From: Nakamurella multipartita DSM 44233 | GTDB taxonomy: Bacteria > Actinomycetota > Actinomycetes > Mycobacteriales > Nakamurellaceae | NCBI RefSeq assembly: GCF_000024365.1 | Contig: NC_013235.1 | Location: 3,596,001-3,660,000, forward strand | Reading direction: 5' to 3' | Length of the DNA: 64,000 nucleotides | Shown here: positions 43,149-61,550 of the stretch, in pieces | How the letters are laid out: each line of letters opens with the position of its first letter | How positions within the stretch are numbered: position 1 is the stretch's first letter | Notes under the pieces: model-generated | The model's input: the letters and a program-made list of their open reading frames with translations, nothing else | Database searches by the model: none | Told to the model about the DNA's origin: nothing | Position numbers and translations under genes: made by a program

Positions 43149-43973
43149 TCAACCCACCCTGGTGCCGACCTGCCGGAGGACCTCTTCCAGGAACTCCGCC
43201 GCGCCATCCTCGTCGTGCCGGCCGATCACGGCCGCCGCGACGGCCCGCGCCTCGGGGCGGGCGTTGCCCATGGCCACCGGCGCCCCGATCCGGGCCAGCC
43301 AGATCGCGTCGTTGCCGCCGTCACCCGCCCCGGCGGCCCGGGCCGGGTCCACGCCCAACCGGTCGAAGACGTACTCGATGGCCGACCACTTGCTGGCGTC
43401 GGGCGCCGAGAGCTCCCAGAATTCGTTCATCGAGCGCATCGCCCGGGGCACCAGCCGGCCGACCGCGGGGGCCGCGTCGTCCAGTTCCTGACGCGTCCCG
43501 AAGATCATCGTCTTGAGCACCGTGCCCGGCTCGATGTCTTCGGGGGTGGCCAGCACGACGGTGGCCTCGTTGATCTCCTCCATCGCCCGGGCCAGCGGTT
43601 GCGAGGTGGCGAAGACCTGGTCGATGGTCCACCAGGTCAGCGGCTGACCGGTGACGTGGTGCAGTTCGACCATCGCCGTCATGTCCGCGTCGGGCACCGG
43701 GCGCACCCACAGGTCCTGCGCGGTCAGCGGGTCGGTGATCAGCCCGCCGTTGCAGCTGATCTGCGGCGAGCGCAGGCCGGCGTCGCGGGCGATGTCCAGC
43801 ACCTGGGACCGGGTCCGACCGGTGGCCAGCACCACCGGCACGCCGGCCTCGTCCAGCGCTCGCATGGCCGCCGACGTCCGGGCCGAGATCCGGTGGTCGC
43901 TCCCGGCGATCGTGCCGTCGACGTCCAGCAGCACCGCGGCGGTGGCGGACAGGTCCAGGTCGATGCGATGCAT
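43149..43973 (-). CDS. HAD-superfamily hydrolase (Cof/SPP-like)
   Basis: A 274-residue phosphatase from ATG 43973, with GAGAGGG 4 bp upstream. Motif I is LLDVDGTIAGSD, motif II ATGRTR, the C2-type cap lies between, and motif IV is GAGDGGNDAIWL. Such enzymes hydrolyse sugar phosphates or similar small esters. Immediately upstream of the ribosome site is a (GGTGC)9 repeat; the frame reads through it, so a longer repeat-bearing form of the protein is conceivable. Confidence 0.88.
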   Translation of the reverse strand: MHRIDLDLSATAAVLLDVDGTIAGSDHRISARTSAAMRALDEAGVPVVLATGRTRSQVLDIARDAGLRSPQISCNGGLITDPLTAQDLWVRPVPDADMTAMVELHHVTGQPLTWWTIDQVFATSQPLARAMEEINEATVVLATPEDIEPGTVLKTMIFGTRQELDDAAPAVGRLVPRAMRSMNEFWELSAPDASKWSAIEYVFDRLGVDPARAAGAGDGGNDAIWLARIGAPVAMGNARPEARAVAAAVIGRHDEDGAAEFLEEVLRQVGTRVG

Positions 43974-43984
43974 GAATCCCTCTC

Positions 43985-44030
43985 GGTGCGGTGCGGTGCG
44001 GTGCGGTGCGGTGCGGTGCGGTGCGGTGCG
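43985..44030. repeat. Pentanucleotide simple repeat (GGTGC)9
   Basis: Nine perfect tandem copies of GGTGC plus one base, just upstream of the ribosome binding site of the HAD gene (minus strand). A change of copy number would shift promoter or leader spacing. The unit is not a multiple of three, so it would also switch the reading frame of any upstream start. Confidence 0.9.
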
Positions 44031-44060
44031 CGGGGCCGGTCGGCGCCGTGACGCGAAAGA

Positions 44061-44111
44061 GGCGTGACCCGGGAGGCGCGGTGTCGTCGACGACACCGCC
44101 CGGGTCACGCC
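44061..44111 (-). terminator. Long interrupted hairpin after the transporter-like gene
   Basis: Arms GGCGTGACCCGGG + CGGTGTCGTC pair with GACGACACCG + CCCGGGTCACGCC over 23 bp, with a 5-nt bulge (44074-44078) and no loop. It lies 23-73 bp beyond the stop of the minus-strand gene at 44134 and separates the catabolic locus from the HAD gene. Confidence 0.65.
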
Positions 44112-44133: not shown

Positions 44134-45066
44134 TCAGCTCAGGACGGCGGCCAGCCCCAGCACGATCGTGGTGGCCGGCCAGATGGCGGCGGCCGGCGGA
44201 TCAATGTGGGTGTTGCCGTGGTCATGCAGCAGCCGGGCGAAGAACTCGGCGAACCACGCCGACATCATGCCGAAGAGCGCACCGATGATCAGCGCGACGA
44301 CGGTGTTGCCACCGACGATCGGCAGGAACGCGAACGCCCCGACGCCGCCGATGATCGTGATGTGGTGGGTCACCGGGAAGCTCAGGCCCAGGCTCAGGAA
44401 CAGCAGGGACACCGCGGACAGGCCGAACACGAAGTACTGCACGGCCGGGATGCCCGGGTACAGCTCGTTGAGCTTGAGCGTCACACCGGCCGCGAACAGA
44501 CCGGCGCCCAGACCGAGAACGGTGTTCGGAACGAACTTCTCGTGGTAACGAACCCACGCGGTCTCGTCCTTGGGGGCGAATCGTCCCCACCCGGCACCCT
44601 CGGGCAGGTTGCCGAAGATGCTGGCCCGCCCGATGAACAGCCGCACGATCAAGGCCGAGATCACCACGGTGACCGCCACGGTGTCGGTGTGGGTGCCGAA
44701 CCACGGAATCTTGGCGATGCCCAGCTGGACGAGATAACCGCCCATGCCGAAAAGTGCACCGACGATGAGGACGTCGGGCTTCTCGATCGAGATCAGCGGC
44801 ACGGCAATGTCCTTGCCCCCCACCTTGTCGGAGCGTCGGGCGGCGTACGCGGCCGCCGCGACGCCGCCGGCGAAGGCGACGTGGGGTCCGAAGACCGGGC
44901 CGAACGCCACGGTGCCCAGGAAGTCACCGGTGCCCCCGGCCAGCAGGATGCCCACCCCGGACACGACCATCAGGCCGGTGAAGATGAAAGCGTGGAGCGC
45001 GCCGATCGCGGCGGCGAAGAAGCCACCGCCGGCGGCCAGGAGCAGGGACAGTAGTTCGAAGTTCAT
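44134..45066 (-). CDS. Polytopic membrane protein, candidate transporter of the polyol locus
   Basis: A 310-residue very hydrophobic protein from ATG 45066 with about 8 membrane segments. Two stretches resemble each other: LIVGALFGMGGYLVQLGIAKIPWFGTHTD near residues 97-125 and LIIGALFGMMSAWFAEFFARLLHDHGNTHID near residues 260-290. This hints at an internal duplication, as in many carriers. I do not recognise the family. It is the only transporter-like gene in the visible locus, is divergent from the GlpK-like kinase and has an operator of the shared motif about 80 bp upstream, so uptake of the locus substrate is a reasonable inference. Confidence 0.75.
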   Translation of the reverse strand: MNFELLSLLLAAGGGFFAAAIGALHAFIFTGLMVVSGVGILLAGGTGDFLGTVAFGPVFGPHVAFAGGVAAAAYAARRSDKVGGKDIAVPLISIEKPDVLIVGALFGMGGYLVQLGIAKIPWFGTHTDTVAVTVVISALIVRLFIGRASIFGNLPEGAGWGRFAPKDETAWVRYHEKFVPNTVLGLGAGLFAAGVTLKLNELYPGIPAVQYFVFGLSAVSLLFLSLGLSFPVTHHITIIGGVGAFAFLPIVGGNTVVALIIGALFGMMSAWFAEFFARLLHDHGNTHIDPPAAAIWPATTIVLGLAAVLS

Positions 45067-45145: not shown

Positions 45146-45175
45146 CAGTACAGGTACATACAAGTCTGTACAAGA
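45146..45175 (-). promoter_or_regulatory. Shared operator, site A (three tandem half-sites)
   Basis: On the minus strand three 10-bp units follow each other: TCTTGTACAG, ACTTGTATGT, ACCTGTACTG. The last two form the 20-bp motif seen at six more places in this locus. Position fits control of the membrane-protein gene starting at 45066. Confidence 0.75.
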
Positions 45176-45441
45176 TCTGCCAGCAGCGGATCCGGCCGAG
45201 TCGTTTCGGTGATGTCGACCGCCCACCTCACCTCGCCGCCGGCCGCCGCACCAGGGCCGGACCACCTGGTCGAACGCCACCTCGTCGGGACCTTCTCCGG
45301 ACTCCCGAGAATGGCGGCCGCGCACCAGGCCGTCAAGCCCGGCGCAACCCCGCTGCAACCCTGCGCACCTGATCTTGGCTCGCCAAATCCATTCACCTGG
45401 AACGGATTCCAGCGGGTCGGCGACGACCGGGTCGATCTGGA
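45176..45441. other. Intergenic stretch between operators A and B
   Basis: About 266 bp between divergent genes. Short open frames exist (for example 45130-45396 minus) but show no protein family, no ribosome site and no membrane or signal pattern. I see no gene here; it presumably holds the two promoters. Confidence 0.6.
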
Positions 45442-45461
45442 CTGTACAAGTCCGTACAGGT
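45442..45461 (-). promoter_or_regulatory. Shared operator, site B
   Basis: Minus-strand ACCTGTACGGACTTGTACAG, two direct half-sites 10 bp apart; it also reads as the inverted repeat CTGTAC-N6-GTACAG. It lies 115 bp before the GlpK-like kinase start. Confidence 0.75.
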
Positions 45462-45575
45462 CTTGACCAGATCGGATGACCGGATTGCGTTGAGCCCACT
45501 CACCCCCCGCGGACCGTCAGCCAGCGGGAATTCCCTTCTGGCTCGGCCACTGTCGCTCGACTGAGAGGTTTCTAC

Positions 45576-47081
45576 GTGAGCAGGTACATCCTGGGCATTG
45601 ACGAGGGCACCACCGGTGCCCGCGCCTTCGTGATCAACGAGGAATGCGAGGTGCTCGGCCTGGCTGCGGCCGAGCTGACCCAGCACTACCCACGGCCGGG
45701 CTGGATCGAGCACGATCCGACCGAGATCCTCACCGTCCAGCTGGAGGTCATCCGGGCCGCGCTGCGGCAGGCCAAGCTCCAGCCGTCGGACCTGTCCGCG
45801 GTCGGCCTGACCAACCAGCGCGAGACCGGCATCGTCTGGGAGAAGGACACCGGCCGGCCGATCCACAACGCGATCGTCTGGGCCTCGCGGCAGACCGTCG
45901 AAGTCGTCGAGCGGTGGGTCGAGCAGGGCCACGGCGAGATGATCCAGGAGCGCACCGGCCTGATCCCGGACGCCTACTACACCGCCTCCAAGATCCGCTT
46001 CATCCTCGACGCCGTGCCCGGCGCCCAGGAGCGGGCCGAGAACGGCGAGCTGCTGGCCGGCACCGTGGACACCTGGCTGATCTGGAACCTGACCGGGCGG
46101 CAGTCGTTCGTCACCGACTACTCCAACGCCTCGCGCACCATGATGTTCAACCTGGAGACCCTCAAGTGGGACCAGGACCTGCTGGCGGCCTACAACATCC
46201 CGGTCCAGATGCTGGCCGAGATCGTGCCCTCGGACGCGATCGTCGGCACCATCGGGGCCACCTTCGGCGCCGAGGTGCCGATCGCCGCGAACATGGGTGA
46301 CCAGCAGGCCGGCCTGTTCGGGCAGGCCGCCTTCGCGCCCGGCCAGTCCAAGATGACCTACGGCACCGCGGGCGTGCTGAACATCAACTGCGGCACCACC
46401 CCGCAACGGGTGGCCGGCCTCACCCCGAGCATGGCCTGGGGGGTGCAGGGCACGCACGCGTACGAGATCGAGGGCGTGCTGTTCGCCATGGGCAAGACCA
46501 TGCAGTGGCTGCGCGACGACCTCAAGCTGATCCATGCCGCCCCGGACTCGGAGTGGTACGCCGGGCAGGTCCCCAGCACCAACGGCGTCTACCTGATCCC
46601 GGCCTTCACCGGCCTGTCCGCACCGGACTGGGACCCGTACGCGCGGGCCGCGATCATCGGCATCAGCAACGCCACGACCCGGCTGCACATCATCCGGGCC
46701 GCGGTCGAGTCGATGGTCTTCCAGACCCGGGACGTCGTCGACGCCGCGCTGTCGGGGGGCGGCGGCACGATCTCCATCCCCGAACTGCGGGTCGACGGCG
46801 GCGCGGTGAAGAACAACTTCCTGTGCCAGCTGCAGGCCGACGTGCTGGGCATCCCGGTGCTGCGTCCGGTCATCTCCGAGGCCACCGTCTTCGGCGCCAT
46901 GCTGATGGCCGGCCTGTCCACCGGCATCTACTCCAGCCTGGACGACGTGGCCGGAAAGTGGAAGCTGGACCGGCGTTTCGAGCCGTCGATGAGCCTGGAT
47001 CAGGCCGACTCGATGTACGCCGGCTGGCGCGAGGCGCGTGACCTGACCCGCGGCTGGGCGCAGAAGGTCAACACCGACTGA
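45576..47081 (+). CDS. FGGY carbohydrate kinase, glycerol kinase-like
   Basis: A 501-residue kinase from GTG 45576 (GAGAGG 8 bp upstream). It is close to glycerol kinase: ILGIDEGTTGARAF phosphate loop, LTNQRETGIVWEK with the substrate Arg/Glu pair, the Trp in IVWAS, the Tyr of DAYYTASK, and GDQQAG with the catalytic Asp. The ATP loop is VDGGAVKNNFL. It phosphorylates glycerol or a longer polyol at a terminal OH. The substrate loop differs in places from E. coli GlpK, so specificity is open. It is preceded by operator B. Confidence 0.9.
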   Translation: MSRYILGIDEGTTGARAFVINEECEVLGLAAAELTQHYPRPGWIEHDPTEILTVQLEVIRAALRQAKLQPSDLSAVGLTNQRETGIVWEKDTGRPIHNAIVWASRQTVEVVERWVEQGHGEMIQERTGLIPDAYYTASKIRFILDAVPGAQERAENGELLAGTVDTWLIWNLTGRQSFVTDYSNASRTMMFNLETLKWDQDLLAAYNIPVQMLAEIVPSDAIVGTIGATFGAEVPIAANMGDQQAGLFGQAAFAPGQSKMTYGTAGVLNINCGTTPQRVAGLTPSMAWGVQGTHAYEIEGVLFAMGKTMQWLRDDLKLIHAAPDSEWYAGQVPSTNGVYLIPAFTGLSAPDWDPYARAAIIGISNATTRLHIIRAAVESMVFQTRDVVDAALSGGGGTISIPELRVDGGAVKNNFLCQLQADVLGIPVLRPVISEATVFGAMLMAGLSTGIYSSLDDVAGKWKLDRRFEPSMSLDQADSMYAGWREARDLTRGWAQKVNTD

Positions 47082-47102
47082 CGCTCCCGTCGAGATCGCC
47101 GA

Positions 47103-47130
47103 GGCCGGGCCCGCTGATGCGGGCCCGGCC
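47103..47130 (+). terminator. Rho-independent-like terminator of the kinase gene
   Basis: Perfect 12-bp stem (GGCCGGGCCCGC with its complement), TGAT loop, followed by TTGTGCTTT, 22 bp after the kinase stop. Confidence 0.8.
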
Positions 47131-47199
47131 TTGTGCTTTCGGATCAGCGCGCCGGGCGCCGCCGATCACCTCGTCCGTCAGCGCCATCGGTGCGCCGAT

Positions 47200-47240
47200 G
47201 CCGAACCGCCCCGGGAGCGATGGTCCCGGGGCGGTTCGGC
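47200..47240 (-). terminator. Strong hairpin between convergent genes
   Basis: Perfect 17-bp stem (GCCGAACCGCCCCGGGA with its complement) and 7-nt loop, 10 bp beyond the stop of the minus-strand dehydrogenase gene. It can serve both directions. Confidence 0.75.
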
Positions 47241-47249
47241 GATGACGGC

Positions 47250-48902
47250 TCAGCCGGCGGTCGCGACCTCCGGCACCCGCCGCTGCACCCCGCCGAGCAA
47301 CCGGGTGCGCACGTAGTCGCGGTGCCGGCGCACCTGCTCGTGGACGTCCGCGTCCGCCCAACCCAGCAACGGTGCGGCCACCGCGGCCACCTCGCGGTCC
47401 ACGTCCAGGCCCAGGGCCGGCGACAGGCCCACCATGGTGCGCCGGTGCAGGATGTCGGCCAGTTGCACGGCGCCCTCGGCCCGCACGGCCAGGGTGATCT
47501 CGGCGACCACCACGGCCCCCTCCCCCGACCCGATGACCCGGGCCTGGGCCGGGTCCCCGGCGATCAGCTCCAGCAGGTCCTGGCAACGGGCGCCGTAGAC
47601 CGACACCAGCCGATCGGCGATCGGCCCGGCGAACGGCAGCCGGCTGCGCACCTGCCGGCTCCGGGCCGGCCAGTCGGCGGCCCCGCCGGGCAGCGTCTCC
47701 CGGCCGGTGCGCGAGGCCGGCAACGAGCGACCGATCAACTTGGCGGCCAGGTCGACGGTCTCCCGGCCCAGGCTCAGGTGCGGGGTGAGCTTGCCACCGA
47801 CCACGCTGATCAGGTTGGGCACCGTGTCGTGGGTGAGGATCAGGTGGCTGCGCGGGATGTTGCCGCTCTTGACCCCCGGCCGGTACGGCAGCGGCCGCAC
47901 CCCCGCGTAGCTGAACAGCACCGAGTCCGCGGTGAGCCCGGCCTCCGGGATCAACGTGTTGGTTTCCTTGATCAGGTAGTCGATCTCGTCCTCGGTGCCG
48001 GACACGGTGTCCAGATCGCCGTCGAACCGGTCGTCGGTGGTGCCGATCAGGTACCGGCCGTTCCACGGGATAACGAGCACGGCCCGGTTGTCCGAGCGCG
48101 CCTCGTAGTAGATGGCCACGTCCGGAGCACCGGGGAACGGGTCGACGATGATGTGCGTGCCCTTGGTGCCACCGATCATCCGGTCCAGACCCAGCCCGGC
48201 ATCGGCATCGTCGACCCAGGGGCCGGCCGCGTTGATCACGACCTTGGCCCGGACGTCGTGGTCGAGGCCGGTCAGCTCGTCGTGCACGGCGAGGCCGACC
48301 GCGGCCCCGTCCCGCACGGTGATCGACGCGGTGGCGTAGGTCAGCACCCGGGCGCCCGCGGCGGCCGCGGACAGCAGCGTCTCCAGCACCAGTCGCTCGG
48401 CGAACACGACCTGCCCGTCGTAATAGCGCAGGCCGGCGGACAACCCGTCGGGGTTGAGCGAGCCCAGCTCGACGGCGACGGCCTTACGACCCAGGCGGCG
48501 GTGCCGCGGGACGGACTTGCGCAGCGACAGCGCGTCGTACAGGACCATGCCGGCCCGGAACATCCAGCCGGGCTTGTGATTGTGCTGGTACACCGGCACC
48601 ACGAACGGCAACGGAGTGACCAGGTGAGGGGCGATGTGCAGCAACCGTTCCCGGTCGTGCAGCGACTCGCGGACCAGGGCCAGCTCGCCGTGCTCGAGAT
48701 AGCGCAGGCCGCCGTGGATGAGCCGGCTGGACCACGACGAGGTGCCCGATCCCACGTCGGCCTTGTCCGCGACGAATACCGACAGCCCCCGACTCGCGGC
48801 GTCCCGGGCGATCGCGGCACCGTTGATGCCGGCGCCGATCACCGCCAGGTCGAACTCGGTGGTGGCCAGGTCGGCCGCCGACGCCCGGACGAAATTCTGC
48901 AT
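47250..48902 (-). CDS. FAD-dependent glycerol-3-phosphate dehydrogenase family (GlpD/EryB-like)
   Basis: A 550-residue flavoenzyme from ATG 48902. The FAD loop VIGAGINGAAIARDAASRG opens the protein; SSWSSRLIHGGLRYLE and KGTHIIVDPFPGAPD are family signatures, and the C-terminal helical domain follows (DWPARSRQ to the end). It passes electrons from a polyol phosphate to the quinone pool at the membrane. In erythritol operons the homologue EryB oxidises erythritol phosphate, so glycerol-3-phosphate is only one possible substrate. Divergent from the isomerase gene, with operator C between. Confidence 0.9.
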   Translation of the reverse strand: MQNFVRASAADLATTEFDLAVIGAGINGAAIARDAASRGLSVFVADKADVGSGTSSWSSRLIHGGLRYLEHGELALVRESLHDRERLLHIAPHLVTPLPFVVPVYQHNHKPGWMFRAGMVLYDALSLRKSVPRHRRLGRKAVAVELGSLNPDGLSAGLRYYDGQVVFAERLVLETLLSAAAAGARVLTYATASITVRDGAAVGLAVHDELTGLDHDVRAKVVINAAGPWVDDADAGLGLDRMIGGTKGTHIIVDPFPGAPDVAIYYEARSDNRAVLVIPWNGRYLIGTTDDRFDGDLDTVSGTEDEIDYLIKETNTLIPEAGLTADSVLFSYAGVRPLPYRPGVKSGNIPRSHLILTHDTVPNLISVVGGKLTPHLSLGRETVDLAAKLIGRSLPASRTGRETLPGGAADWPARSRQVRSRLPFAGPIADRLVSVYGARCQDLLELIAGDPAQARVIGSGEGAVVVAEITLAVRAEGAVQLADILHRRTMVGLSPALGLDVDREVAAVAAPLLGWADADVHEQVRRHRDYVRTRLLGGVQRRVPEVATAG

Positions 48903-48987
48903 CTGTCAGGCCTTTCCGCCGCTGCACGCGGCCGTGTCGGCCAGCCGGGGTCCGTCGCGGGCGACGCCAACCGGAGGCCAGGGGCTT

Positions 48988-49007
48988 GCTTGTATGTACA
49001 GGATTGA
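48988..49007 (+). promoter_or_regulatory. Shared operator, site C (weaker)
   Basis: GCTTGTATGTACAGGATTGA keeps the first half-site well and the second poorly. On the other strand the same region also gives two 10-bp units (ATCTTGTTCA, ATCCTGTACA). It lies between the divergent dehydrogenase and isomerase genes. Confidence 0.55.
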
Positions 49008-49059
49008 ACAAGATAGGAGGACTGCTTGTCGAGCCCCCACCAGAAAGGGACACCCTCCC

Positions 49060-49836
49060 GTGCTGCCCCCCACCCTGATCGGATGCAGTTCCAAGAGCTA
49101 TTTCTCGGCGGCCCAGGCCCGGGCCTGGGGCCCGGAGGTGATGGCCGGAGTGGCCGACGACGCCGCCGGCACCAGCGGGTTGTTCTGCTGCCCGTCGTTC
49201 CCGCTGATCCCCACGCTGCTGGATTCCCTGGGCGCGGCCGGCGGTCTGGTCGGCGCCCAGGACGTCTCGGTGTACGGCCCGGGGTCCTACACCGGCGAGG
49301 TGAGCGCGGCCGTGCTGGCCGAACTGGGCTGCCGGTTCGTGATGGCCGGGCACCCCGAGCGGCGGCGGATCTTCGGTGAGGACGACCAGACGGTTCATCG
49401 CAAGGTGCTGGCCACCGCCGAGGCCGGGATGGCCCCGATCATCGTGGTCGGCGAGGACGTGGAGGGGGCCAGTGCCGCCGACGCGCTCAACGCGCAGTTC
49501 GACCGCTGGCTGGACGGCTTCCCGGCCGGCGCGGAGCTCCTGGTCGCCTACGAGCCGGCCTGGGCCATCGGTCGCCCGCAGCCCGCCCCGCCCGCGCATG
49601 TGGCCGAAACGATCGCCACCGTGCGCGACCTGATCGCGCAGCGGGACACCGCCGCCCGGGTCGTCTACGGCGGCAGTGCCCAGCCCGGCACGTACCGCGC
49701 GATCGCGGCTGCGGCCGGCGAGGATGTCACGGGCGTCCCGGACGGTCTGTTCATGGCCCGATTCGGCCTCGACGTGGCCAACTTCCTGTCGATCGTGCGC
49801 GAGGTACGCGAGGTCGCCGGCCAAATTGGTCGGTAG
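49060..49836 (+). CDS. Triosephosphate isomerase-like isomerase
   Basis: A 258-residue TIM barrel from GTG 49060. Catalytic residues are Lys12 (in IGCSSKSYFS), His98 in AGHPERR and Glu165 in AYEPAWAIG; loop 8 is YGGSAQPGTY. Classical TIM has GNWKMN and GHSERR; both are altered here. That is the kind of change seen in TIM homologues acting on tetrulose phosphates (EryH, LerI). I infer isomerisation of a ketose/aldose phosphate of the locus and not general glycolysis. A GTG start, 11 bp after AAAGG. Confidence 0.88.
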   Translation: MLPPTLIGCSSKSYFSAAQARAWGPEVMAGVADDAAGTSGLFCCPSFPLIPTLLDSLGAAGGLVGAQDVSVYGPGSYTGEVSAAVLAELGCRFVMAGHPERRRIFGEDDQTVHRKVLATAEAGMAPIIVVGEDVEGASAADALNAQFDRWLDGFPAGAELLVAYEPAWAIGRPQPAPPAHVAETIATVRDLIAQRDTAARVVYGGSAQPGTYRAIAAAAGEDVTGVPDGLFMARFGLDVANFLSIVREVREVAGQIGR

Positions 49837-49841
49837 GTTGA

Positions 49842-49861
49842 CTATACAAGTCCGTACATGT
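49842..49861 (-). promoter_or_regulatory. Shared operator, site D
   Basis: Minus-strand ACATGTACGGACTTGTATAG, differing from site B at only three positions. It lies 126 bp before the aldolase start, directly after the isomerase stop. Confidence 0.75.
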
Positions 49862-49987
49862 CGGTTACCATCAGACGACCACCGATGACCACCCTGTGCA
49901 TCATCGGCACACTCAGAATAAACAGCTCGACGTTTCCGTGTCCAGCCGGGACGGGCCGCCCGGTCCGCCCCCGACCAAAGGATCGAC

Positions 49988-50848
49988 ATGACCATTGCCA
50001 AGACCGTTGACCTCGTGAGGGCCGCCCGTCAGGCCGGTTACGCGGTCCCCGCGGTCAACATCGTCGACGACCTGTCCATGCGGGCGATCATCGCCGCGGC
50101 CGAGCAGGCGCAGTCGCCGATCATCATCCAGACCTCGGTCAAGACGGTGAAAAGCATGGGCGCCGAGATCATCTCCGGCATCTTCCAGCACGCCGCGAGC
50201 AACGTCTCGGTCCCGGTCGCGCTGCACCTGGATCACTGCCCGGACCGCGCGGTGATCACCCAGGTGATCCGGCACGGCTGGTCCTCGGTGCTGTTCGACG
50301 CCTCCGACCGCCCGCTGCAGCAGGCCTGGGACGAGACCCGCGAGGTCGTCGCCGAGTGCCACGCGGCCGGCGTCGGGGTGGAGAGCGAGATCGAAAACAT
50401 CGTCGGCGTCGAGGACGGGGTGGGCTCGGACGAGGCCACGCACTCCTACAGCAACGCCAAGCTCGTCGAGGTCGCGCAGGACACCGGCACCGACCTGCTC
50501 GCGCCGGCCCTGGGCACGGCGCACGGCCTGTACAAGGCCTCCCCGGTGCTGCAGTACGACCGGGTCGCGGAACTGGGCCGGCTGACCGACAAGCCGGTCG
50601 TCCTGCACGGCGGGACCGGCCTGTCCCCCGAGGACTTCCAGCGCTTCATCGACAACGGCGTGGCCAAGATCAACATCTCGACCACGGTCAAGCTCGCCTA
50701 CATGCACGCGGCGCGCGATCACATCGCCAAGGCCGAGCAGACCGGCAAGTGGGAGCCGGTCAAGATGTTCGACGACATCAACGCGGCCGTCCAGGCCACC
50801 GTCATCGAGCACATCGGCGAGTTCGGCAGCAAGGGAGCCGCGGCATGA
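49988..50848 (+). CDS. Class II (zinc) aldolase, GatY/KbaY/FbaA family
   Basis: A 286-residue aldolase from ATG 49988. Zinc and substrate residues are His80, Asp82 and His83 in ALHLDHCPD, Glu132/Glu134 in VESEIENIVG, His179 in LGTAHGLYK and His207 in VLHGGTGL. The DHAP-binding tail KINISTTVK is kept. Length suits the tagatose/fructose-bisphosphate aldolase group. It probably splits a ketose phosphate into DHAP plus an aldehyde. The phosphatase gene begins within its stop codon. Confidence 0.92.
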   Translation: MTIAKTVDLVRAARQAGYAVPAVNIVDDLSMRAIIAAAEQAQSPIIIQTSVKTVKSMGAEIISGIFQHAASNVSVPVALHLDHCPDRAVITQVIRHGWSSVLFDASDRPLQQAWDETREVVAECHAAGVGVESEIENIVGVEDGVGSDEATHSYSNAKLVEVAQDTGTDLLAPALGTAHGLYKASPVLQYDRVAELGRLTDKPVVLHGGTGLSPEDFQRFIDNGVAKINISTTVKLAYMHAARDHIAKAEQTGKWEPVKMFDDINAAVQATVIEHIGEFGSKGAAA

Positions 50849-51633
50849 CCCCGGCCCTGATCCTGGACTGTGACGGCGTTCTGGCCGACACCGAGCGCGA
50901 CGGTCACCTGGTCGCGTTCAACCAGACCTTCCGCGAACTCGGCCTGCCCTTCCAGTGGTCGCAGGAGGAGTACGCCGAGCTGCTCAAGATCGGCGGCGGC
51001 AAGGAGCGGATGCTGGGCTACCTGCGCCAGCACCCGGAGCTGGACTTCGGCACCCCCGAGGAGGTGGCGGCCAAGGTCGCCGCCGCGCACAAGCGCAAGA
51101 GCGAGGTCTACGTCGAGCTGGTCGAGCAGGGCGCGCTGCCCGGGCGCCCCGGCGTCAAGCGGCTGATCGAGTCCGCGCTGGACGCCGGCTGGGTGGTGGC
51201 CGTCGCCTCCACCTCGGCCACCAAGAGCGTCGAGGCCGTGCTCACCTCGGTCGTCGGGCCGCAGACCCGGGCCCGGATGGCCGGCGTGTGGGCCGGCGAC
51301 ATCGTGCCGGCCAAGAAGCCGGCCCCGGACATCTACCTGCTCACCCTGCGGGAGTTGGGCCTGTCGGCCGACGATGCCGTGGTCATCGAGGACTCCGAGT
51401 CGGGCGCGAAGGCGGCCGCGGCGGCCGGCCTGCGGCACGTGGTGACGGTCAGTTCCTTCACCGCCCAGGACCCGTTCCCGGCGGCCGGCATCGTTGTCTC
51501 CGACCTGGGTGAGCCCGGCGCGCCGGGTGCCTACCGGGCCGGCCTGGACGTGCGCCACGACGGCGTCATCGATGTCGCCTCGCTGGAACGCCTGCTGGCG
51601 CAGACCACCGCGCCGGCCCCGGCGACGGTCTGA
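50845..51633 (+). CDS. HAD-IA phosphatase, CbbY-like
   Basis: A 262-residue HAD enzyme, coupled to the aldolase by ATGA. Motif I ALILDCDGVLADTERDGH has Asp8 and Asp10; motif II is VASTS, motif III the Lys in PAKKPAPDIY, and motif IV VIEDSESG. The C1 cap contains GGGKERMLGYL. The sequence is nearest to CbbY, which dephosphorylates xylulose-1,5-bisphosphate. It may remove a dead-end bisphosphate or release the free sugar or aldehyde made by the neighbouring enzymes. Confidence 0.9.
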   Translation: MTPALILDCDGVLADTERDGHLVAFNQTFRELGLPFQWSQEEYAELLKIGGGKERMLGYLRQHPELDFGTPEEVAAKVAAAHKRKSEVYVELVEQGALPGRPGVKRLIESALDAGWVVAVASTSATKSVEAVLTSVVGPQTRARMAGVWAGDIVPAKKPAPDIYLLTLRELGLSADDAVVIEDSESGAKAAAAAGLRHVVTVSSFTAQDPFPAAGIVVSDLGEPGAPGAYRAGLDVRHDGVIDVASLERLLAQTTAPAPATV

Positions 51634-51634
51634 G

Positions 51635-52393
51635 CTACAGCTCGTACTGGAATTCCAGTCTGATCTTGTCCCCACGGAACAGGATTCGGGAGTACTCGAA
51701 CTCCTGTCCCGTGGGGTCCGAGATCTCCTGGCGCAGCAACAACAACGGCGTCGTCCGCCGGATGCGCAGCAGCTTGGCCTCGTCGGCCGACGGCAGGGTC
51801 GACTCCAGGCTTTCGTTCACCCGGCTCATTCGCAACCCGTGCTCGTTCTCCAGGACGACGCACAACTGGCGATTGACCAGATCGTCGGCATCCAGATCCT
51901 GGGCCAGCGCCTTGGGCACGAAAGACGTATGCAGGCTGATCGGCTCGTCCTCCACCAACCGGACCCGACTGAGCCGGTACACCAGGCTGCCCGGTGAGAT
52001 CCGCAGGTGCTCGGCCACTCTCACGTCGGCCGGGATGACCTCGCTGGAGAGCACCTTGGTGGTGGTCTCGTATCCCATGCGCTCGAGCTGTTCCCGGATG
52101 CCCATGTAGGCCGGCGACCGGGTGCCGATCTTGCGGTGAGCCACGAAGGTGCCCTTGCCCTGCACCCGGAACAGCAGTTCCTCGTTCACCAGTTGCGCGA
52201 GCACCTGGCGGGCGGTCATCCGGCTGATCCCGTACATCCGGTTGAGTTCGTTCTCGGAGGGGATCTTCTGATCCGGCTTCCATTCACCGCGCTCGATCCT
52301 TTCGCGCAGCACGTTGGCCAATTGGATGTACAGGGGCGTCGATCCGCTGCGGTCCAACGAACCGACCGGCTCGGCGACAGGTGAGACGGTCAT
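51635..52393 (-). CDS. GntR family regulator, HutC subfamily
   Basis: A 252-residue repressor from ATG 52393 (GAAGG 9 bp upstream). The winged helix spans residues ~15-85 (PLYIQLANVLRERIERGEWKPDQKIPSENELNRMYGISRMTARQVLAQL) and the UTRA effector domain residues ~105-245. It is divergent from the E1 gene with operator E in the gap of 355 bp. It is a natural candidate to bind the shared motif, with a pathway sugar phosphate as effector. Its stop is 1 bp from the convergent phosphatase stop. Confidence 0.93.
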   Translation of the reverse strand: MTVSPVAEPVGSLDRSGSTPLYIQLANVLRERIERGEWKPDQKIPSENELNRMYGISRMTARQVLAQLVNEELLFRVQGKGTFVAHRKIGTRSPAYMGIREQLERMGYETTTKVLSSEVIPADVRVAEHLRISPGSLVYRLSRVRLVEDEPISLHTSFVPKALAQDLDADDLVNRQLCVVLENEHGLRMSRVNESLESTLPSADEAKLLRIRRTTPLLLLRQEISDPTGQEFEYSRILFRGDKIRLEFQYEL

Positions 52394-52748
52394 GACCGGA
52401 CAACCTTCGAGTGAGTCACCGTGTTCCCCCTTTGAGCGCGGAGCCGTGCGCGGCAGTCGGCGGAGCAGCACAGCGTGTCGATAGACGCGCTGATTGTACG
52501 TCTTTACCTGCGTCTAAGGCGCGCGTCACGTTCGGTGGCCCGGATAGGCACCACGGGCCGGCGCCGGGACCGAACGCAAACTGCATCTTGCCAGCCAAGC
52601 TATACATGTATAGGGTTGTATAGCAACACCGTGGCCAGTCCGGCCGCTCCGTCAGGTCAGGATCTCGACGAGGAGAGGGTGCGTTGATCGTCGCCCCACA
52701 CGCATCTCGGAGATCCATTCCCACCCGACCAACCGAAGGATTCTCCTG
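52394..52748. other. Divergent promoter region between the GntR and E1 genes
   Basis: A 355-bp gap without a coding gene. It contains operator E near its middle and is locally richer in A+T than the surrounding DNA. No RNA gene or riboswitch was recognised. Confidence 0.6.
52604..52623 (+). promoter_or_regulatory. Shared operator, site E
   Basis: ACATGTATAGGGTTGTATAG; it overlaps the perfect palindrome TATACATGTATA. It lies 126 bp before the E1 start and 211 bp before the GntR start. Confidence 0.75.
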
Positions 52749-54923
52749 ATGCCCAAGACGACTGAACTCAAGCCTCTCGCCCCCTGGGTGGAGCTGTCCT
52801 CCACCCAGGCCGACTGGGACGCCCTGGACCCGGCCGTCCTGGACACCATGCTGGCTCAGCTGCACCTGATCCGCGCCTTCGAGGAGGAGGTGCTGGTCCT
52901 GGCCGGCCAGAAACTGATCAACGGGCCGGCCCACTCCTCGATCGGCCAGGAGGGCGGAGCGGTCGGTTCGGTGCTGCCGCTGGGCGCCGGCGACCAGGTC
53001 AACGGCTCGCACCGCGGGCACCACCAGTTCCTGGCCAAGGCGCTGGGCTTCGTCGCCCCCGATGGCCTGAACCCGCGTGAGCCGCTCTCGGACAAGGTCC
53101 GAGAGGTCCTGCACCGCAGCATGTCCGAGATTGCCGGGCTGTCCGACGGCTACTGCCGCGGGCGCGGCGGCTCCATGCACCTGCAGTGGATCGAGGCCGG
53201 CGGGATGGGCACCAACGCCATCGTCGGTGGCGCGGTGCCGTTCGCCGCGGGCTTCGCCTTCGCCGACAAGCACGCCGACACCACCAACGTCTCGGTCACC
53301 TACTTCGGCGACGGCGCGGTCAACATCGGCTCCGTGCTGGAGACCATGAACCTGGCCGCCGCGTGGAAGCTGCCGGTCTGCTTCTTCATCGAGAACAACC
53401 AGTACGCCGTGTCCACCACCGTGCAGGAGGCCACCGGCGACGATCGCCTCTCGGCCCGCGGGCTGGGCTTCGGCATCCCCAGCTGGAAGGTCGACGGGAT
53501 GGACACCGTCGCGGTCTACCTGGCGATGCAGCAGGCCCTGGAGGTCATGCGGCACGGCAACGGGCCGACCGTGATCGAGGTCGACACCTACCGTTACTTC
53601 CACCAGAACGGTCCGTTCCCGGGCAGCGCGTTCGGCTACCGCAGCAAGGACGAGGAGCAGAGCTGGCGCGACCGGGACCCGATCGCCAAGCTCGAGGGTC
53701 ACCTGCTGCGCCGCGGCCTGTACACCGAGGCCGAGCTGACCGGGGTGCGCAAGTCCATCAAGGCGGCCCTGGGCGAGATCGGCGCCCAGCTGGTCGAGCA
53801 GGACCCGAACGGCAAGCCCGGCCAGCAGCGGATCCGGCCCGAGCTGTGGCCGGACCCGGCCTTCCTGGACGTCGGCATCCGGGGCGACCTGTCCAGCCTC
53901 AAGGAGCTCACGGTCCGGGAGAACGACAGCTTCGCCGCCGACGAGCTGGAGGATCGCAAGTTCGTCGACGTCATCGCCGAGGTCATGCAGATCCGGATGG
54001 ACGAGAACCAGCGGGTCGTCGTGATGGGCGAGGACGTGCACCGGCTCAACGGCGGTTCCCGGGGCGCCACCAAGGGCCTGCGGGAGAAGTTCGACGACCG
54101 GGTGCTGGGCACCCCCATCTCCGAGGCCGCCTTCACCGGCCTGGGTGGCGGGCTGGCCCTGGACGGGCGCTTCTACCCGGTGGTCGAGCTGATGTACGCC
54201 GACTTCATCTGGGTGGCCGCCGACCAGATCTTCAACCAGATCGGCAAGGCCCGGCACATGTTCGGCGGCGACCACGACATGCCGCTGCTGATGCGCATCA
54301 AGATCGGTACCGGCACCGGTTACGGCTCGCAGCACTCGATGGATCCGGCCGGCATCATGGCCACCTCGGTGGGCTGGCGGATCATCGCCCCGTCCTCGCC
54401 GATGGACTACGTCGGTCTGATCAACGCCGCGATGCACCTCAAGGACCCGGTCGTGGTTCTGGAGCACGACGCCGACCTGTACAAGATCACCGGCCCGGCG
54501 CCGAAGAAGGACTGGAACTACATCCTGCCCCCCGGCCAGGCGGCCGTCCGCCGCGAGGGCAAGGACGTCACCGTCCTGACCTACCTGTCGATGGTGACCA
54601 AGTCGCTGCAGGCGGCCGAGAAGTCCGGCGTCGACGCCGAGGTCATCGACCTGCGGTGGCTGGACCGGGCCAGCCTGGACTGGGACGCGATCGAGCGGAG
54701 CATCAAGAAGACCAACAAGGTGCTCATCGTCGAGCAGGGTTCGCTGGGCACCTCCTACGGCGGGTGGCTGGCCGACGAGCTCCAGAACCGTTTCTTCGAC
54801 TGGCTGGACGCGCCGGTGGGCCGGGTCACCGGCAGCGAGTCCTCGCCGAGCATCTCCAAGGTGCTCGAGGCGGCCGCCCTGGCCGGGGTCGACGACATCG
54901 TCGACGCGCTCAAGAACATCTGA
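52749..54923 (+). CDS. Fused alpha/beta E1 of a 2-oxoacid or acetoin-type dehydrogenase
   Basis: A 724-residue thiamine-diphosphate enzyme from ATG 52749. Residues ~30-345 are the E1 alpha part, with the TPP motif GDGAVNIG (187-194) to ENNQYAVS; residues ~390-724 are the E1 beta part (VVVMGEDVHRL, EAAFTGLGGGLAL, C-terminal transketolase-like domain). In most bacteria these are two genes. It would decarboxylate a 2-oxoacid, or cleave an acetoin-like hydroxyketone, and pass the acyl group to E2. A linker of ~45 residues joins the halves. The partner E2 gene follows after 48 bp; no E3 gene is in view. Confidence 0.92.
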   Translation: MPKTTELKPLAPWVELSSTQADWDALDPAVLDTMLAQLHLIRAFEEEVLVLAGQKLINGPAHSSIGQEGGAVGSVLPLGAGDQVNGSHRGHHQFLAKALGFVAPDGLNPREPLSDKVREVLHRSMSEIAGLSDGYCRGRGGSMHLQWIEAGGMGTNAIVGGAVPFAAGFAFADKHADTTNVSVTYFGDGAVNIGSVLETMNLAAAWKLPVCFFIENNQYAVSTTVQEATGDDRLSARGLGFGIPSWKVDGMDTVAVYLAMQQALEVMRHGNGPTVIEVDTYRYFHQNGPFPGSAFGYRSKDEEQSWRDRDPIAKLEGHLLRRGLYTEAELTGVRKSIKAALGEIGAQLVEQDPNGKPGQQRIRPELWPDPAFLDVGIRGDLSSLKELTVRENDSFAADELEDRKFVDVIAEVMQIRMDENQRVVVMGEDVHRLNGGSRGATKGLREKFDDRVLGTPISEAAFTGLGGGLALDGRFYPVVELMYADFIWVAADQIFNQIGKARHMFGGDHDMPLLMRIKIGTGTGYGSQHSMDPAGIMATSVGWRIIAPSSPMDYVGLINAAMHLKDPVVVLEHDADLYKITGPAPKKDWNYILPPGQAAVRREGKDVTVLTYLSMVTKSLQAAEKSGVDAEVIDLRWLDRASLDWDAIERSIKKTNKVLIVEQGSLGTSYGGWLADELQNRFFDWLDAPVGRVTGSESSPSISKVLEAAALAGVDDIVDALKNI

Positions 54924-54971
54924 CCTGCTCGTTGATGACCAGCTTGATGAACCAGTAAGGACGACTGACTC

Positions 54972-56300
54972 ATGGCAACACTGTTCCGGATGCCCGGCGT
55001 CTCGGCCGACGCCGACGAAGCGGTGCTGGAGGCCTGGACCGTCCAGCAGGGCGCGACCATCTCCAGCGGGCAGACGATCGCCTCCGTGGAGACCGAAAAG
55101 GCCGTCGTGGACGTGGAATCCGACATCGACGCGGTCGTGCACGCGCTGCTCGTGCCGGGTGGGGCGACGGTGCCGGTCGGCGACCCGATCGCCGTCCTGC
55201 TCGAGATCGACGAGGACCCGGCCGAGGGCGAGAAGCTGCTGGCCCAACTCGGCCTGGGTGGCGATCAGGCCGCCGAGACGGCCACCGCGATCGCCTCCGC
55301 CCCCGAGGAGGCCCAGGCTCCGCCGGCTCCGGCTCCGGATGCCCCGGCTCCGTCGGCGACCGTCGTCGCCGCGCCGGCCGCCAGCAGCAACGGCGGCCGG
55401 GTGTTCGCCAGCCCGATCGCCCGAAAGTTGGCCCGCGAGAAGGGTATCGACTTCGCGACGCTGACCGGCACCGGGCCCGGAGGCCGGATCGTGCGCGACG
55501 ACGTGCTCGCCGCCGCATCGGCCGGCACCGCGCCGGTGACCGCCGCCGCCCCGCCGGCGGCCTCAGCGGCCGCCGCCCCGCAGCCCGCCGCCCAGCCGGT
55601 CGCCCCGGTGGTCCGGCCGGGATGGGAGGCGACCCCGCACTCCAAGCTGCGCAAGCTGGTGGCCTCGCGGCTGCAGGCCTCCAAGCAGCAGGCGCCGCAC
55701 TTCTACCTGCGCACCTCGCTGCGGGTCGATGCCCTGCTCGCGCTGCGGGCCCAGCTCAATGCCGCGGGCAGCGACCGCATCTCGGTGAACGACTTCATCG
55801 TCAAGGCCGCGGCCAAGGCGCTGATCGACGTGCCCGAGATGAACGTGGTGTGGTCGGAGGAGGCGGTCCTGCACGCACCGCAGGCCGACGTGGCGGTGGC
55901 CGTGGCCAGCGACCGCGGCCTGGTCACCCCGGTGATCAGCGGCGTCGAAGGATTGTCCCTGTCGGCGCTGTCGCGCCGGATCAAGGACGCGGTGGCCCGG
56001 GCCAACGACGGCAAGCTGCAGCAGTCCGAGCTCGAAGGGGGCACGCTGACCATCTCCAACCTGGCCATGTTCGGCGTGGAGGAGTTCGACGCGATCATCA
56101 ACCCGCCGCAGGCCGGCATCCTGGCCGTGGGAGCCGCCGTCAAGCAGCCGGTGGTCGGCGACGACGGCGAGATCGCGGTGGCCGGCGTGGTCAAGGTGGT
56201 GCTCTCGGTCGATCACCGTCCGGTGGACGGGGTGGTCGGGGCCAAGTGGCTGGCCCGGTTCAAGGAGCTGATCGAGAACCCGCTGCAGATCATCGTCTGA
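54972..56300 (+). CDS. E2 dihydrolipoamide acyltransferase
   Basis: A 442-residue E2 from ATG 54972. One lipoyl domain (lysine 43 in VETEKAVVDVES), a Pro/Ala-rich linker, a peripheral subunit-binding domain near residues 145-180 (FASPIARKLAREKGID), a second linker, and the catalytic domain from ~215 ending with the active-site DHRPVDG. It moves the acyl group from E1 to CoA. It is coupled in order with the E1 gene, and must borrow E3 from elsewhere in the genome. Confidence 0.93.
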   Translation: MATLFRMPGVSADADEAVLEAWTVQQGATISSGQTIASVETEKAVVDVESDIDAVVHALLVPGGATVPVGDPIAVLLEIDEDPAEGEKLLAQLGLGGDQAAETATAIASAPEEAQAPPAPAPDAPAPSATVVAAPAASSNGGRVFASPIARKLAREKGIDFATLTGTGPGGRIVRDDVLAAASAGTAPVTAAAPPAASAAAAPQPAAQPVAPVVRPGWEATPHSKLRKLVASRLQASKQQAPHFYLRTSLRVDALLALRAQLNAAGSDRISVNDFIVKAAAKALIDVPEMNVVWSEEAVLHAPQADVAVAVASDRGLVTPVISGVEGLSLSALSRRIKDAVARANDGKLQQSELEGGTLTISNLAMFGVEEFDAIINPPQAGILAVGAAVKQPVVGDDGEIAVAGVVKVVLSVDHRPVDGVVGAKWLARFKELIENPLQIIV

Positions 56301-56338
56301 TCCGGCATCCGCCCAGCCCATTCAGGAAGGACCTTTTC

Positions 56339-57175
56339 GTGCAGTCCGTCGACTCGTTCGACCTCAACGACATCGATACGGCGATCTTCGATCTGGACGG
56401 AACGATCTACCTGGGTGATGCGCTGTTGCCCGGGGCGGCGCGGCTGGTCGGGTCGTTGCGGGAACGCGGTGTGCGCACCGTGTTCTGCAGCAACAACCCG
56501 ACCAAGTCACCGACCACCTACGCCGACAAGCTCACCGCTCTGGGCATCGGCACCGACGTGGACGATGTGTTCACCAGCCTGAACTCGACGGTTCGCTGGG
56601 TCACCACGACCATGCCGGGAGCGACCGTCTTCCCCATCGGCGAGCAGCCGTTGATCGAGGCACTCACTGCGGCCGGTGTGCCCATCAGCGACGATCCGAC
56701 CCGGATCGATCTGGTGATCAGCTCCTACGACCGCACCTTCGACTATCGCAAGCTGCAGATCGCCTTCGACGCCCTGTGGTTCCACCGCCGGGCCCGGTTG
56801 GTGGCCACCAATCCGGATCGCTTCTGCCCCTTCCCGGGCGGCCGGGGTGAGCCGGACGCGGCCTGCATCACCGCCGCCATCACCGCTGGCACCGGCGTGC
56901 CCTGCGAGGCCGTATTCGGCAAGCCGGAACGAGGACTGTTCGACATCATCGCCCAGGCAACGGGTTTGGTTCCGGAGCGGACGCTGATGTTCGGCGACCG
57001 GCTGTCCACCGACATCAGTTTCGCCCGCCGGCACGGGATGCGCAGCGCCCTGGTGCTCACCGGTGAGACCGACACCGCCATGCTGGCCGCCGCCCCGGAG
57101 GACATCCGGCCGGACGTGGTCCTGCCCCGCATCGACGACCTGCTGGCCGCCCACGACGACCGGAGGTCGGCATGA
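56339..57175 (+). CDS. HAD-IIA phosphatase (NagD/phosphoglycolate phosphatase-like)
   Basis: A 278-residue enzyme from GTG 56339 with AGGAAGG 8 bp upstream. Motif I is AIFDLDGTIYLGD (Asp18, Asp20), motif II FCSNNPTKS, and motif IV MFGDRLSTDI; the C2 cap lies between. Relatives hydrolyse glycerol phosphate, phosphoglycolate or nucleotides. The gene overlaps the glycerol-1-phosphate dehydrogenase gene by 4 bp, so the two enzymes probably act in sequence, for example making and then dephosphorylating a polyol phosphate. Confidence 0.9.
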   Translation: MQSVDSFDLNDIDTAIFDLDGTIYLGDALLPGAARLVGSLRERGVRTVFCSNNPTKSPTTYADKLTALGIGTDVDDVFTSLNSTVRWVTTTMPGATVFPIGEQPLIEALTAAGVPISDDPTRIDLVISSYDRTFDYRKLQIAFDALWFHRRARLVATNPDRFCPFPGGRGEPDAACITAAITAGTGVPCEAVFGKPERGLFDIIAQATGLVPERTLMFGDRLSTDISFARRHGMRSALVLTGETDTAMLAAAPEDIRPDVVLPRIDDLLAAHDDRRSA

Positions 57176-58551
57176 GCACCTCGAGACCCTCGACGACCCC
57201 CCGGACGCCACAGGACTTCGCCACCGCCTGGGCTCTGCCGCTGCGCACCATCGTGTCCGCGCCCGGCGCGCTGGACCGGCTGCCCGGGCTGGTCGGCCAA
57301 CTGCCGGCGACCGGCGACCTGGGCCTTTTGCACGACGGCACGCCCAAGGCGGTCGGCGAGGCCGATCTGCTGACCCGCGTCCAGGACAGTCTGGCCGGCC
57401 GGGCGCTGCGCCCGGTGCAGACTCCCCCGGGCGCCCACGGCACCGTGCTGGACGAGGCGACCGTGCAGTTCACGGTCGACGCGGCCCGCGGCATCACCGG
57501 CCTGGTGTCGGTGGGTTCGGGCACCATCAGCGATCTGGCCAAGGCGGTGGCCGCCGAACTCGACGTGCCGTTGGTGGCCGTGCAGACGGCCGCGTCGGTC
57601 AACGGCTACGCCGATTCGCTCTCGGTGCTGGTCCGCAACGGCGCGAAGCGAACCGTGCCGACCGCCTGGCCGCAGGCCCTGCTGATCGACCACGACGTCC
57701 TGGCCCAGGCGCCGGACGCGCTGACCCGGTCCGGCGTCGGCGATGCGGTCGCGGTCTGGGTCGCGCCGGCCGACTGGTACCTGGCCAACGCCCTCGGGCT
57801 GGACCGGGGATTCGACGAGAGCTCGGTCGCCCCGGTGTCCACGGCGGCCCACGCGCTGGTCGAACTCGACCCGGCCGAGCCGGCGGCGCTGGCCGCGCTG
57901 ATCGACACGCTGACCATCGGCGGGCTGGGGATCGGGTTCACCGGCACCACCGCCGGCCTGTCCGGCTGCGAGCACCTGATCAGCCACCTGCTGGACATGG
58001 CCGCGATGGCCGCCGGGACCGAGCACGACCTGCACGGGGCCCAGGTCGGCGTGGCCACCGTGGTCTCCTGCGCGCTGTGGGAGATCGCCCTGCAGGAAAT
58101 GGATCTGGGCCGCCTGGAGCCGGCCGCGCTGGCGCCGCCGGCCGACCTGGAACAGCGCGTGCTGGCCAGCTGGCGCGACCTGGACCCCAGTGGCCGCGTC
58201 GGGGGCGAATGCTGGACCGCGGTTCAACGCAAGTTCGCCGCCTGGGCCGAGCACGGCGCGGACGTGCGCCGCTTTTTTGACCGCTGGCCGGAGCACGAGG
58301 ACACCCTGCGCCGGTTGGCCGCACCGCCGCGGTTGCCGGCCACCGCCCTGCAGCGGTGGGGTGCCGCCGTCACCTTCTCCGCGCTCACCCCGGCCGTGGA
58401 CGCCGACCGGGCCCGCTGGGCCCTGCGCACCCTGCCCTACATGCGCGACCGGTTCACCCTGGCCGACCTGCTGCTGCTGGCCGGCCGCTGGGACGACGCC
58501 TTGATCGACCGGGTGCTGGCCCGGGCCGCCGAGGTCGGCGGCGGGTTGTAA
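57172..58551 (+). CDS. sn-Glycerol-1-phosphate dehydrogenase family (AraM/EgsA-like)
   Basis: A 459-residue NAD(P)-dependent metal dehydrogenase from ATG 57172. The nucleotide loop is VSVGSGTISDLAK; metal ligands are Asp191 in GVGDAVA, His268 in GCEHLISH and a histidine in TEHDLHGAQVGV (285-288). AraM of Bacillus reduces DHAP to glycerol-1-phosphate and occurs in the arabinose operon. This protein is ~60 residues longer than AraM, mainly at the C-terminus. It may reduce DHAP or a longer ketose phosphate from the aldolase route. Confidence 0.88.
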   Translation: MSTSRPSTTPRTPQDFATAWALPLRTIVSAPGALDRLPGLVGQLPATGDLGLLHDGTPKAVGEADLLTRVQDSLAGRALRPVQTPPGAHGTVLDEATVQFTVDAARGITGLVSVGSGTISDLAKAVAAELDVPLVAVQTAASVNGYADSLSVLVRNGAKRTVPTAWPQALLIDHDVLAQAPDALTRSGVGDAVAVWVAPADWYLANALGLDRGFDESSVAPVSTAAHALVELDPAEPAALAALIDTLTIGGLGIGFTGTTAGLSGCEHLISHLLDMAAMAAGTEHDLHGAQVGVATVVSCALWEIALQEMDLGRLEPAALAPPADLEQRVLASWRDLDPSGRVGGECWTAVQRKFAAWAEHGADVRRFFDRWPEHEDTLRRLAAPPRLPATALQRWGAAVTFSALTPAVDADRARWALRTLPYMRDRFTLADLLLLAGRWDDALIDRVLARAAEVGGGL

Positions 58552-58581
58552 ACAACGACGGCCTGCGAAAATATCTGCCAG

Positions 58582-58601
58582 ACATGTATGTACAAGTATA
58601 G
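58582..58601 (+). promoter_or_regulatory. Shared operator, site F
   Basis: ACATGTATGTACAAGTATAG, followed by a weak third unit AGATGTGACC. It lies 101 bp before the second FGGY kinase start and right after the dehydrogenase stop. Confidence 0.75.
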
Positions 58602-58701
58602 AGATGTGACCTAGACTACGGGCCAGAGTTCTTCACCGCCGTTGTTCACCCCGCCTGCACACTGTCCGTCAGGCACGGCCCAACTCACCCAAAGGACTTT
58701 C

Positions 58702-60261: not shown

Positions 60262-60280
60262 GCCCGTCACCTTCCGGACC

Positions 60281-60305
60281 CGGGTGCGGCACGCCGCCGC
60301 ACCCG
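60281..60305 (+). terminator. Hairpin terminator after the second kinase gene
   Basis: Perfect 10-bp stem CGGGTGCGGC with its complement and a 5-nt loop, 20 bp after the stop. Confidence 0.6.
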
Positions 60306-60405
60306 CCACCTAGGCCCGCTCCCGGGTCGCCTTCCCGCCGCCGCGACGGAAGGCGCACCCGGGGGCGGGCCTTCGGCGTTCGCCCGGCCCGGCCGCACCG
60401 ACAGC

Positions 60406-60440
60406 AAGGGCCCGATCCGCGCCCGCCGGATCGGGCCCTT
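60406..60440 (-). terminator. Hairpin terminator for the convergent dehydrogenase gene
   Basis: Perfect 14-bp stem AAGGGCCCGATCCG with its complement and a 7-nt loop, 18 bp beyond the minus-strand stop at 60459; the A/T ends suit both directions. Confidence 0.7.
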
Positions 60441-60458
60441 CGTCGAGGCGACCGTGGC

Positions 60459-61493: not shown

Positions 61494-61530
61494 GCGCCGA
61501 TGCTAACGACCGCACCCCCATGTTGGCTAG

Positions 61531-61550
61531 ACATGTATGCACCTGTACTA
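61531..61550 (+). promoter_or_regulatory. Shared operator, site G
   Basis: ACATGTATGCACCTGTACTA, between the divergent dehydrogenase (start 61493) and EryA-like kinase (start 61668) genes. Confidence 0.75.

Follow-up and report, generated by a model that had tools for sequence, protein, structure and literature searches.

A predicted channel-type polyol facilitator at a co-regulated polyol locus of Nakamurella multipartita

The polyol locus and its operator

We examined a stretch of 64,000 nucleotides from the Nakamurella multipartita genome (hereafter the window), in which the open reading frame at 44134-45066 encodes a polytopic membrane protein of 310 residues; the limits given in the initial annotation were verified. 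An alternative GTG start, 57 nt upstream of the ATG, is possible, and the protein of a congener (L002), 72% identical, aligns with the window protein from the ATG. The gene, which we call the facilitator gene after its predicted role, is divergently paired across a 509-bp gap with the polyol kinase that had been described there, an FGGY/GlpK-type enzyme at 45576-47081. The genes and operator sites of the locus are as follows.

43149..43974 (-): HAD-IIB phosphatase, 3' of the facilitator gene (ORF listed as 43149-44108; likely ATG at 43974)
44134..45066 (-): predicted polyol facilitator, 310 aa (ORF, read from the ATG at 45066 to the stop at 44134)
45148..45174 (+): facilitator-gene operator with three 10-bp units (ACAGGTACAT ACAAGTCTGT ACAAGATCTG), located 82-108 bp ahead of the ATG
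45442..45462 (+): operator preceding the kinase gene, the second in the facilitator-kinase gap (tandem 10-bp units)
45576..47081 (+): GlpK-like FGGY kinase (profile matches)
47250..48902 (-): GlpD-like FAD dehydrogenase (profile matches, below the GlpD equivalog cut-offs)
48718..49836 (+): triose-phosphate-isomerase-like protein (TIM match below cut-offs, in the C-terminal part, ORF residues 119-366)
49846..49861 (+): operator preceding the aldolase gene (pattern match)
49988..50848 (+): class II ketose-bisphosphate aldolase-like protein (profile matches, below equivalog cut-offs)
51635..52471 (-): GntR/UTRA regulator (profile matches)
58582..58597 (+): operator preceding the FGGY kinase gene at 58642 (pattern match)
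from 58642: FGGY kinase, downstream of the preceding operator
60459-61493 (-): Zn-alcohol dehydrogenase
61531..61546 (-): operator between the Zn-alcohol dehydrogenase gene and the next FGGY kinase gene (pattern match)
61668-63227 (+): FGGY kinase

The start codon of the TIM-like ORF probably lies further in than listed. About nine tandem GGTGC copies occupy 43985-44030, between the facilitator and HAD phosphatase genes; the phosphatase ORF as listed would cross these repeats, which makes the ATG at 43974 its probable start. A homologue of this phosphatase also adjoins the facilitator gene in two other loci (L053 and L012). Just 3' of the facilitator gene lies a perfect, terminator-like GCGGTGTCGTC/GACGACACCGC palindrome (44067-44108). 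Also inside the polyol regulon are a gene for a fused E1 alpha-beta 2-oxoacid dehydrogenase (724 aa) and an E2 gene (52749-56300), whose matches all fall below equivalog cut-offs, and a gene at 57172-58551 for a protein distantly related to glycerol-1-phosphate dehydrogenase (111 bits, the cut-off being 413), homologues of which adjoin FGGY kinase genes and the facilitator gene in L004, L006, L007 and L011.

The triple-unit operator noticed earlier before the facilitator gene proved real, and tandem 10-bp units resembling ACAWGTNYRT stand before the facilitator, kinase, aldolase and further kinase genes. With at most one mismatch, ACANGTNNRTACANGT matches seven times in the window against 0.05 expected. 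Exact matches number five in the 6,060,298-bp genome and all fall within the window (45150-61546), two of them in the facilitator-kinase gap, and this genome-wide exact search found no site beside another transporter. Since all five exact sites lie in the polyol locus, the facilitator is taken to be co-regulated with it, probably by the GntR/UTRA protein encoded at 51635-52471 acting at the operator.

The observation that the locus contains no ABC, MFS or PTS gene holds for the proteins scanned between 43 and 63 kb. We also checked the genes to the right of the window, where the initial annotation had suggested looking for an ABC system, and found a TRAP DctM gene about 1.5 kb beyond the window end, at which the IclR gene (63297-63980) also lies. 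The minus-strand segment that contains it (L072:1115-3448, 1.1-3.4 kb right of the window) encodes the TRAP DctM permease, a small ORF and an RraA-like protein. We ruled out this permease as the real transporter of the locus, as it belongs to another operon beside the IclR regulator and has no operator site.

Family spread and gene context

As the initial annotation proposed, the window protein fits no recognised family: it matched nothing in Pfam or NCBIfam at E<=1 and had no relative among PDB sequences at E<=10, two weak profile matches being unrelated. Searching Pfam with 27 family members gave nothing relevant even at E<=10, and neither these 27 in Pfam nor the window protein in NCBIfam matched ABC, MFS or PTS sugar transporter families. 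A likeness of its DPPA motif to HPP/nitrite transporters was dropped, Pfam giving no support. Relatives beyond the genus, about 32-50% identical, occur in Actinomycetota, Bacteroidota (Bacteroidetes MAGs), a Bryobacterales MAG and haloarchaeal plasmids. The spread is patchy, the family being present in 3 of the 101 near genomes and in 16 of the 396 that made up a phylum sample. Copies are split or fragmentary in two actinobacterial genomes (L040, L041-L043; one frameshifted), suggesting decay.

To describe the gene context, genes were called and clustered around 28 family members, with the neighbourhood defined as 8 kb to either side. An FGGY kinase gene occurs in the neighbourhood of 21 of the 28, a DhaK gene in 13, a GlpD-like gene in 11, a PTS EI/HPr/EIIA fusion in 10 and a Dak2 gene in 6, counts that come from loci not all independent, several pairs being close relatives. 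Two further loci place the facilitator gene in a propanediol-type operon, and G3P-responsive antiterminators are recurrent neighbours; no polyol gene lies near it in L005, L052, L061 and L066. The N. multipartita genome (6.06 Mb) has about ten FGGY genes, or roughly 0.03 expected per 16-kb stretch, so an FGGY neighbourhood arising by chance is untenable.

The pattern repeats in Actinomycetota, Bacteroidota and haloarchaea. On a Microbacterium plasmid, which carries the nearest relative outside the genus, the facilitator gene is followed by glpK- and glpD-like genes, and in the haloarchaeon Natribaculum (L014) it begins 38 bp after glpK, with glpABC divergent. On Rhodococcus plasmids and in one genome (L054) it lies within an operon for an alcohol dehydrogenase (ADH), an aldehyde dehydrogenase, a CoA ligase and an acryloyl-CoA reductase, which we read as an operon for 1,3-propanediol breakdown. 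The kinase gene is the immediate neighbour in many loci, an arrangement that would also suit a membrane partner of the kinase or of the GlpD-type dehydrogenase, with no transport role of its own; against such a partner stand the propanediol-type operons, where the family occurs without an FGGY kinase, and the finding of no other transporter gene in the locus.

A family of glycerol transporters has been predicted before, from haloarchaea, with rrnAC0550 as an example (Anderson et al. 2011, PMC3102087): this membrane protein adjoins glycerol kinase in haloarchaea, and its bacterial homologues lie near glycerol or propanediol genes. In Haloquadratum walsbyi, the glpK neighbour HQ1732A has seven predicted transmembrane helices, is co-transcribed with glpK and is expressed on glycerol, and a role in glycerol uptake was suggested (PMC5496347). 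The Natribaculum member of our family occupies exactly this glpK-adjacent position, and our family shows the association described for the 2011 family, adjacency to glpK with bacterial homologues at glycerol or propanediol genes; the identification of the two as one family rests on context and host group. Where the present case differs is that the earlier papers gave no fold and that the facilitator described here serves a probably non-glycerol polyol locus. Among searchable papers (subscription papers being outside scope), we found no functional test or fold assignment of the family.

Internal duplication and predicted fold

Both GALFGM segments that had been noticed are present (residues 103-108 and 262-267), and each is followed by the described Thr-His-Thr/Ile-Asp pattern (THTD at 125-128, THID at 286-289). 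The suspected internal duplication was upheld by a comparison of N-half and C-half profiles, which scored 34.7 (P 3.8e-5; residues 62-129 with 235-286); 100 column-shuffled controls reached no more than 19.1, and the C half in reverse gave 14.4. By this sequence comparison, the GALFGM and THTD/THID segments are parts of a real internal repeat. Among 27 aligned members, 29 positions are invariant, including H62, D128, W171, H234, H235, E274, R278, D289, P290 and P291.

An AlphaFold model of the window protein, built from 27 sequences, has a pLDDT of 93.2 and a pTM of 0.90; a further model, for L010 of the Bacteroidota (pLDDT 87.0, pTM 0.88), is not fully independent of the first, because both were built from largely the same alignment. 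The polytopic character anticipated in the initial annotation stands, with slightly more helices than the roughly eight it counted: the model of the window protein has ten of membrane length, amid which are two short re-entrant helices (48-54 and 222-225). In our reading of this model, with the re-entrant helices marked, repeat 1 would comprise helices 5-21, 23-42, 48-54 (re-entrant), 61-78, 97-118 and 129-144, and repeat 2 helices 178-202, 207-219, 222-225 (re-entrant), 234-247, 255-281 and 290-309. Five helices and one re-entrant helix per repeat is what we take to be the plan of urea transporters (UT).

Structure comparison points in the same direction. A Foldseek search, one of the checks first proposed, matched UT weakly, the best of their E values lying above 0.01 (0.12 for the window protein and 0.023 for L010; TM about 0.3). 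With VIA-align, UT fill all of the top 12 rows for the window protein (Z 8.3-7.5), followed by a TRIC channel (Z 7.0, seen with this model only) and Amt/Rh (Z 6.3-5.9). For the L010 model they fill rows 1-10 (Z 8.1-7.7) and Rh/Amt/Mep proteins nearly all of rows 11-24, the best unrelated fold reaching Z 5.6. Z values near 8 are within reach of unrelated helical proteins, and the UT alignments over both models cover 166-199 residues at 4.1-5.7 A. The aquaporin fold was rejected as a candidate, since it appeared low-ranked in Foldseek only and was absent from the listed VIA-align rows.

UT (PF03253; dvUT 3k3f and UT-B 4ezc) are thus the best structural match of both models and, as two-repeat channels of about 330 residues with re-entrant helices, resemble what is predicted for the facilitator; they differ in showing no sequence match, in genetic context and in that the conserved polar residues of the facilitator are His and Asp. 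Amt/Rh/Mep proteins (PF00909), the structural block ranked after UT at Z about 6, have conserved His residues, like the facilitator, and differ in length (about 400 residues against 310) and in the lack of a sequence match. Profile-profile comparison of the family with UT and Amt alignments gave no signal above shuffled or reversed controls. UT and Amt are themselves taken to share a fold, and they do not find each other by the same comparison, so the absent sequence signal is no argument against a shared fold. From the models, a UT/Amt-like channel fold is likely, not proven.

This resemblance is the one point in favour of regarding the protein as a divergent urea or ammonium channel with polyol neighbours by coincidence. 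We consider this highly improbable: neither PF03253 nor PF00909 matches any of the 27 members at E<=10, the NNPLSG-type repeat motif visible in UT sequences is absent from the family alignment, and polyol genes recur as neighbours. In addition, the N. multipartita genome carries two genuine Amt genes at other sites, and a PF03253 search of it found no gene. The Amt-type sensor proteins among the structural matches raise the possibility of a polyol-sensing receptor, as some Amt proteins are. The invariant residues, however, correspond between the two repeats, as in a pore, and the protein has no extra signalling domain; we judge a non-transport role of either kind, partner or sensor, to be unlikely.

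The main rival is a secondary active polyol:cation symporter, in which buried Asp/His pairs would provide proton coupling and the protein would work by alternating access. The invariant Asp128, Asp289, His62, His234/235 and Glu274 are compatible with it, and its expected gene context is identical to that of a channel. The model, however, resembles channel folds, and MFS and MATE folds appeared at low Foldseek probability only and were absent from the leading VIA-align rows; we therefore hold a symporter to be unlikely, if somewhat less so than a partner or sensor.

Proposed route of uptake and substrate

The reading that we favour, and consider probable from the sequence comparisons and models together, is a polyol facilitator of channel type, with the architecture of urea/ammonium channels and no sequence relation to GlpF, whose substrate is trapped by the kinase. 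The initial suggestion of a new type of polyol permease is thus supported by the shared operator, by the glycerol, dihydroxyacetone or propanediol context in distant lineages and by the channel-like predicted fold; its newness does not stand, the family having been predicted in 2011 (PMC3102087), and 'channel' describes the facilitator better than 'permease'. The idea of the family is already known; the present work contributes its predicted fold, the wider bacterial context, evidence from the operator and the probably non-glycerol locus.

In the proposed mechanism, the small polyol of the locus would enter through the facilitator by energy-independent diffusion. Each half of the duplicated protein would contribute a re-entrant hairpin, and His62 and Asp128 in repeat 1 and His234/His235 and Asp289 in repeat 2, predicted to lie at matching positions where helices 3 and 5 begin, would form the lining of a central pore as pairs and stand in for the water shell of the polyol. 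The divergent GlpK-like kinase would then trap the substrate as its phosphate, which the GlpD-like enzyme would oxidise, and the GntR/UTRA repressor would free both promoters in response to the substrate or its phosphate.

Several features suggest that this substrate is other than glycerol. The genome has two canonical GlpK genes elsewhere, one of them beside a MIP/GlpF gene, and the locus kinase scores 573 bits against a GlpK equivalog cut-off of 590 while passing the subfamily cut-off; equivalog cut-offs are likewise missed by the GlpD-, TPI- and aldolase-like proteins. Moreover, the position equivalent to Phe270 (E. coli numbering), which we take to be the glycerol-contacting Phe of glycerol kinases, is Val in the locus kinase and in that of the congener, and Phe in all glycerol-type kinases compared. 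Together these sequence features hint at a polyol a little larger than glycerol, with a tetritol as one candidate. In the related operons, the predicted cargo of family members is glycerol or dihydroxyacetone in haloarchaea, Bacteroidota and Actinomycetota, and 1,3-propanediol in Rhodococcus.

More broadly, the family may represent polyol channels that arose on a urea/ammonium channel architecture separately from aquaglyceroporins and that now occur in Actinomycetota, Bacteroidota and haloarchaea, with members tuned to glycerol or dihydroxyacetone, to 1,3-propanediol or to larger polyols, a proposal that we regard as evenly balanced. Glycerol is among the main sources of carbon in salterns. 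Most of the haloarchaea surveyed in 2011 were without a recognisable glycerol transporter (Anderson et al., PMC3102087), a gap that such a channel would fill. It would also be a second structural solution for polyol permeation beside GlpF, and a useful importer of glycerol, propanediol or tetritol for engineered strains.

GlpF (MIP, PF00230) resembles the facilitator in that it would likewise work as a facilitator beside glycerol-type kinases. It differs on several counts: PF00230 finds two other genes in the N. multipartita genome and recognises neither the facilitator nor the 27 members, no NPA boxes were seen in the facilitator, and the best structural matches are others. At one locus (L059), both channel types occur together, with a MIP gene and a facilitator-family gene sharing one operon with DhaK and GlpK.
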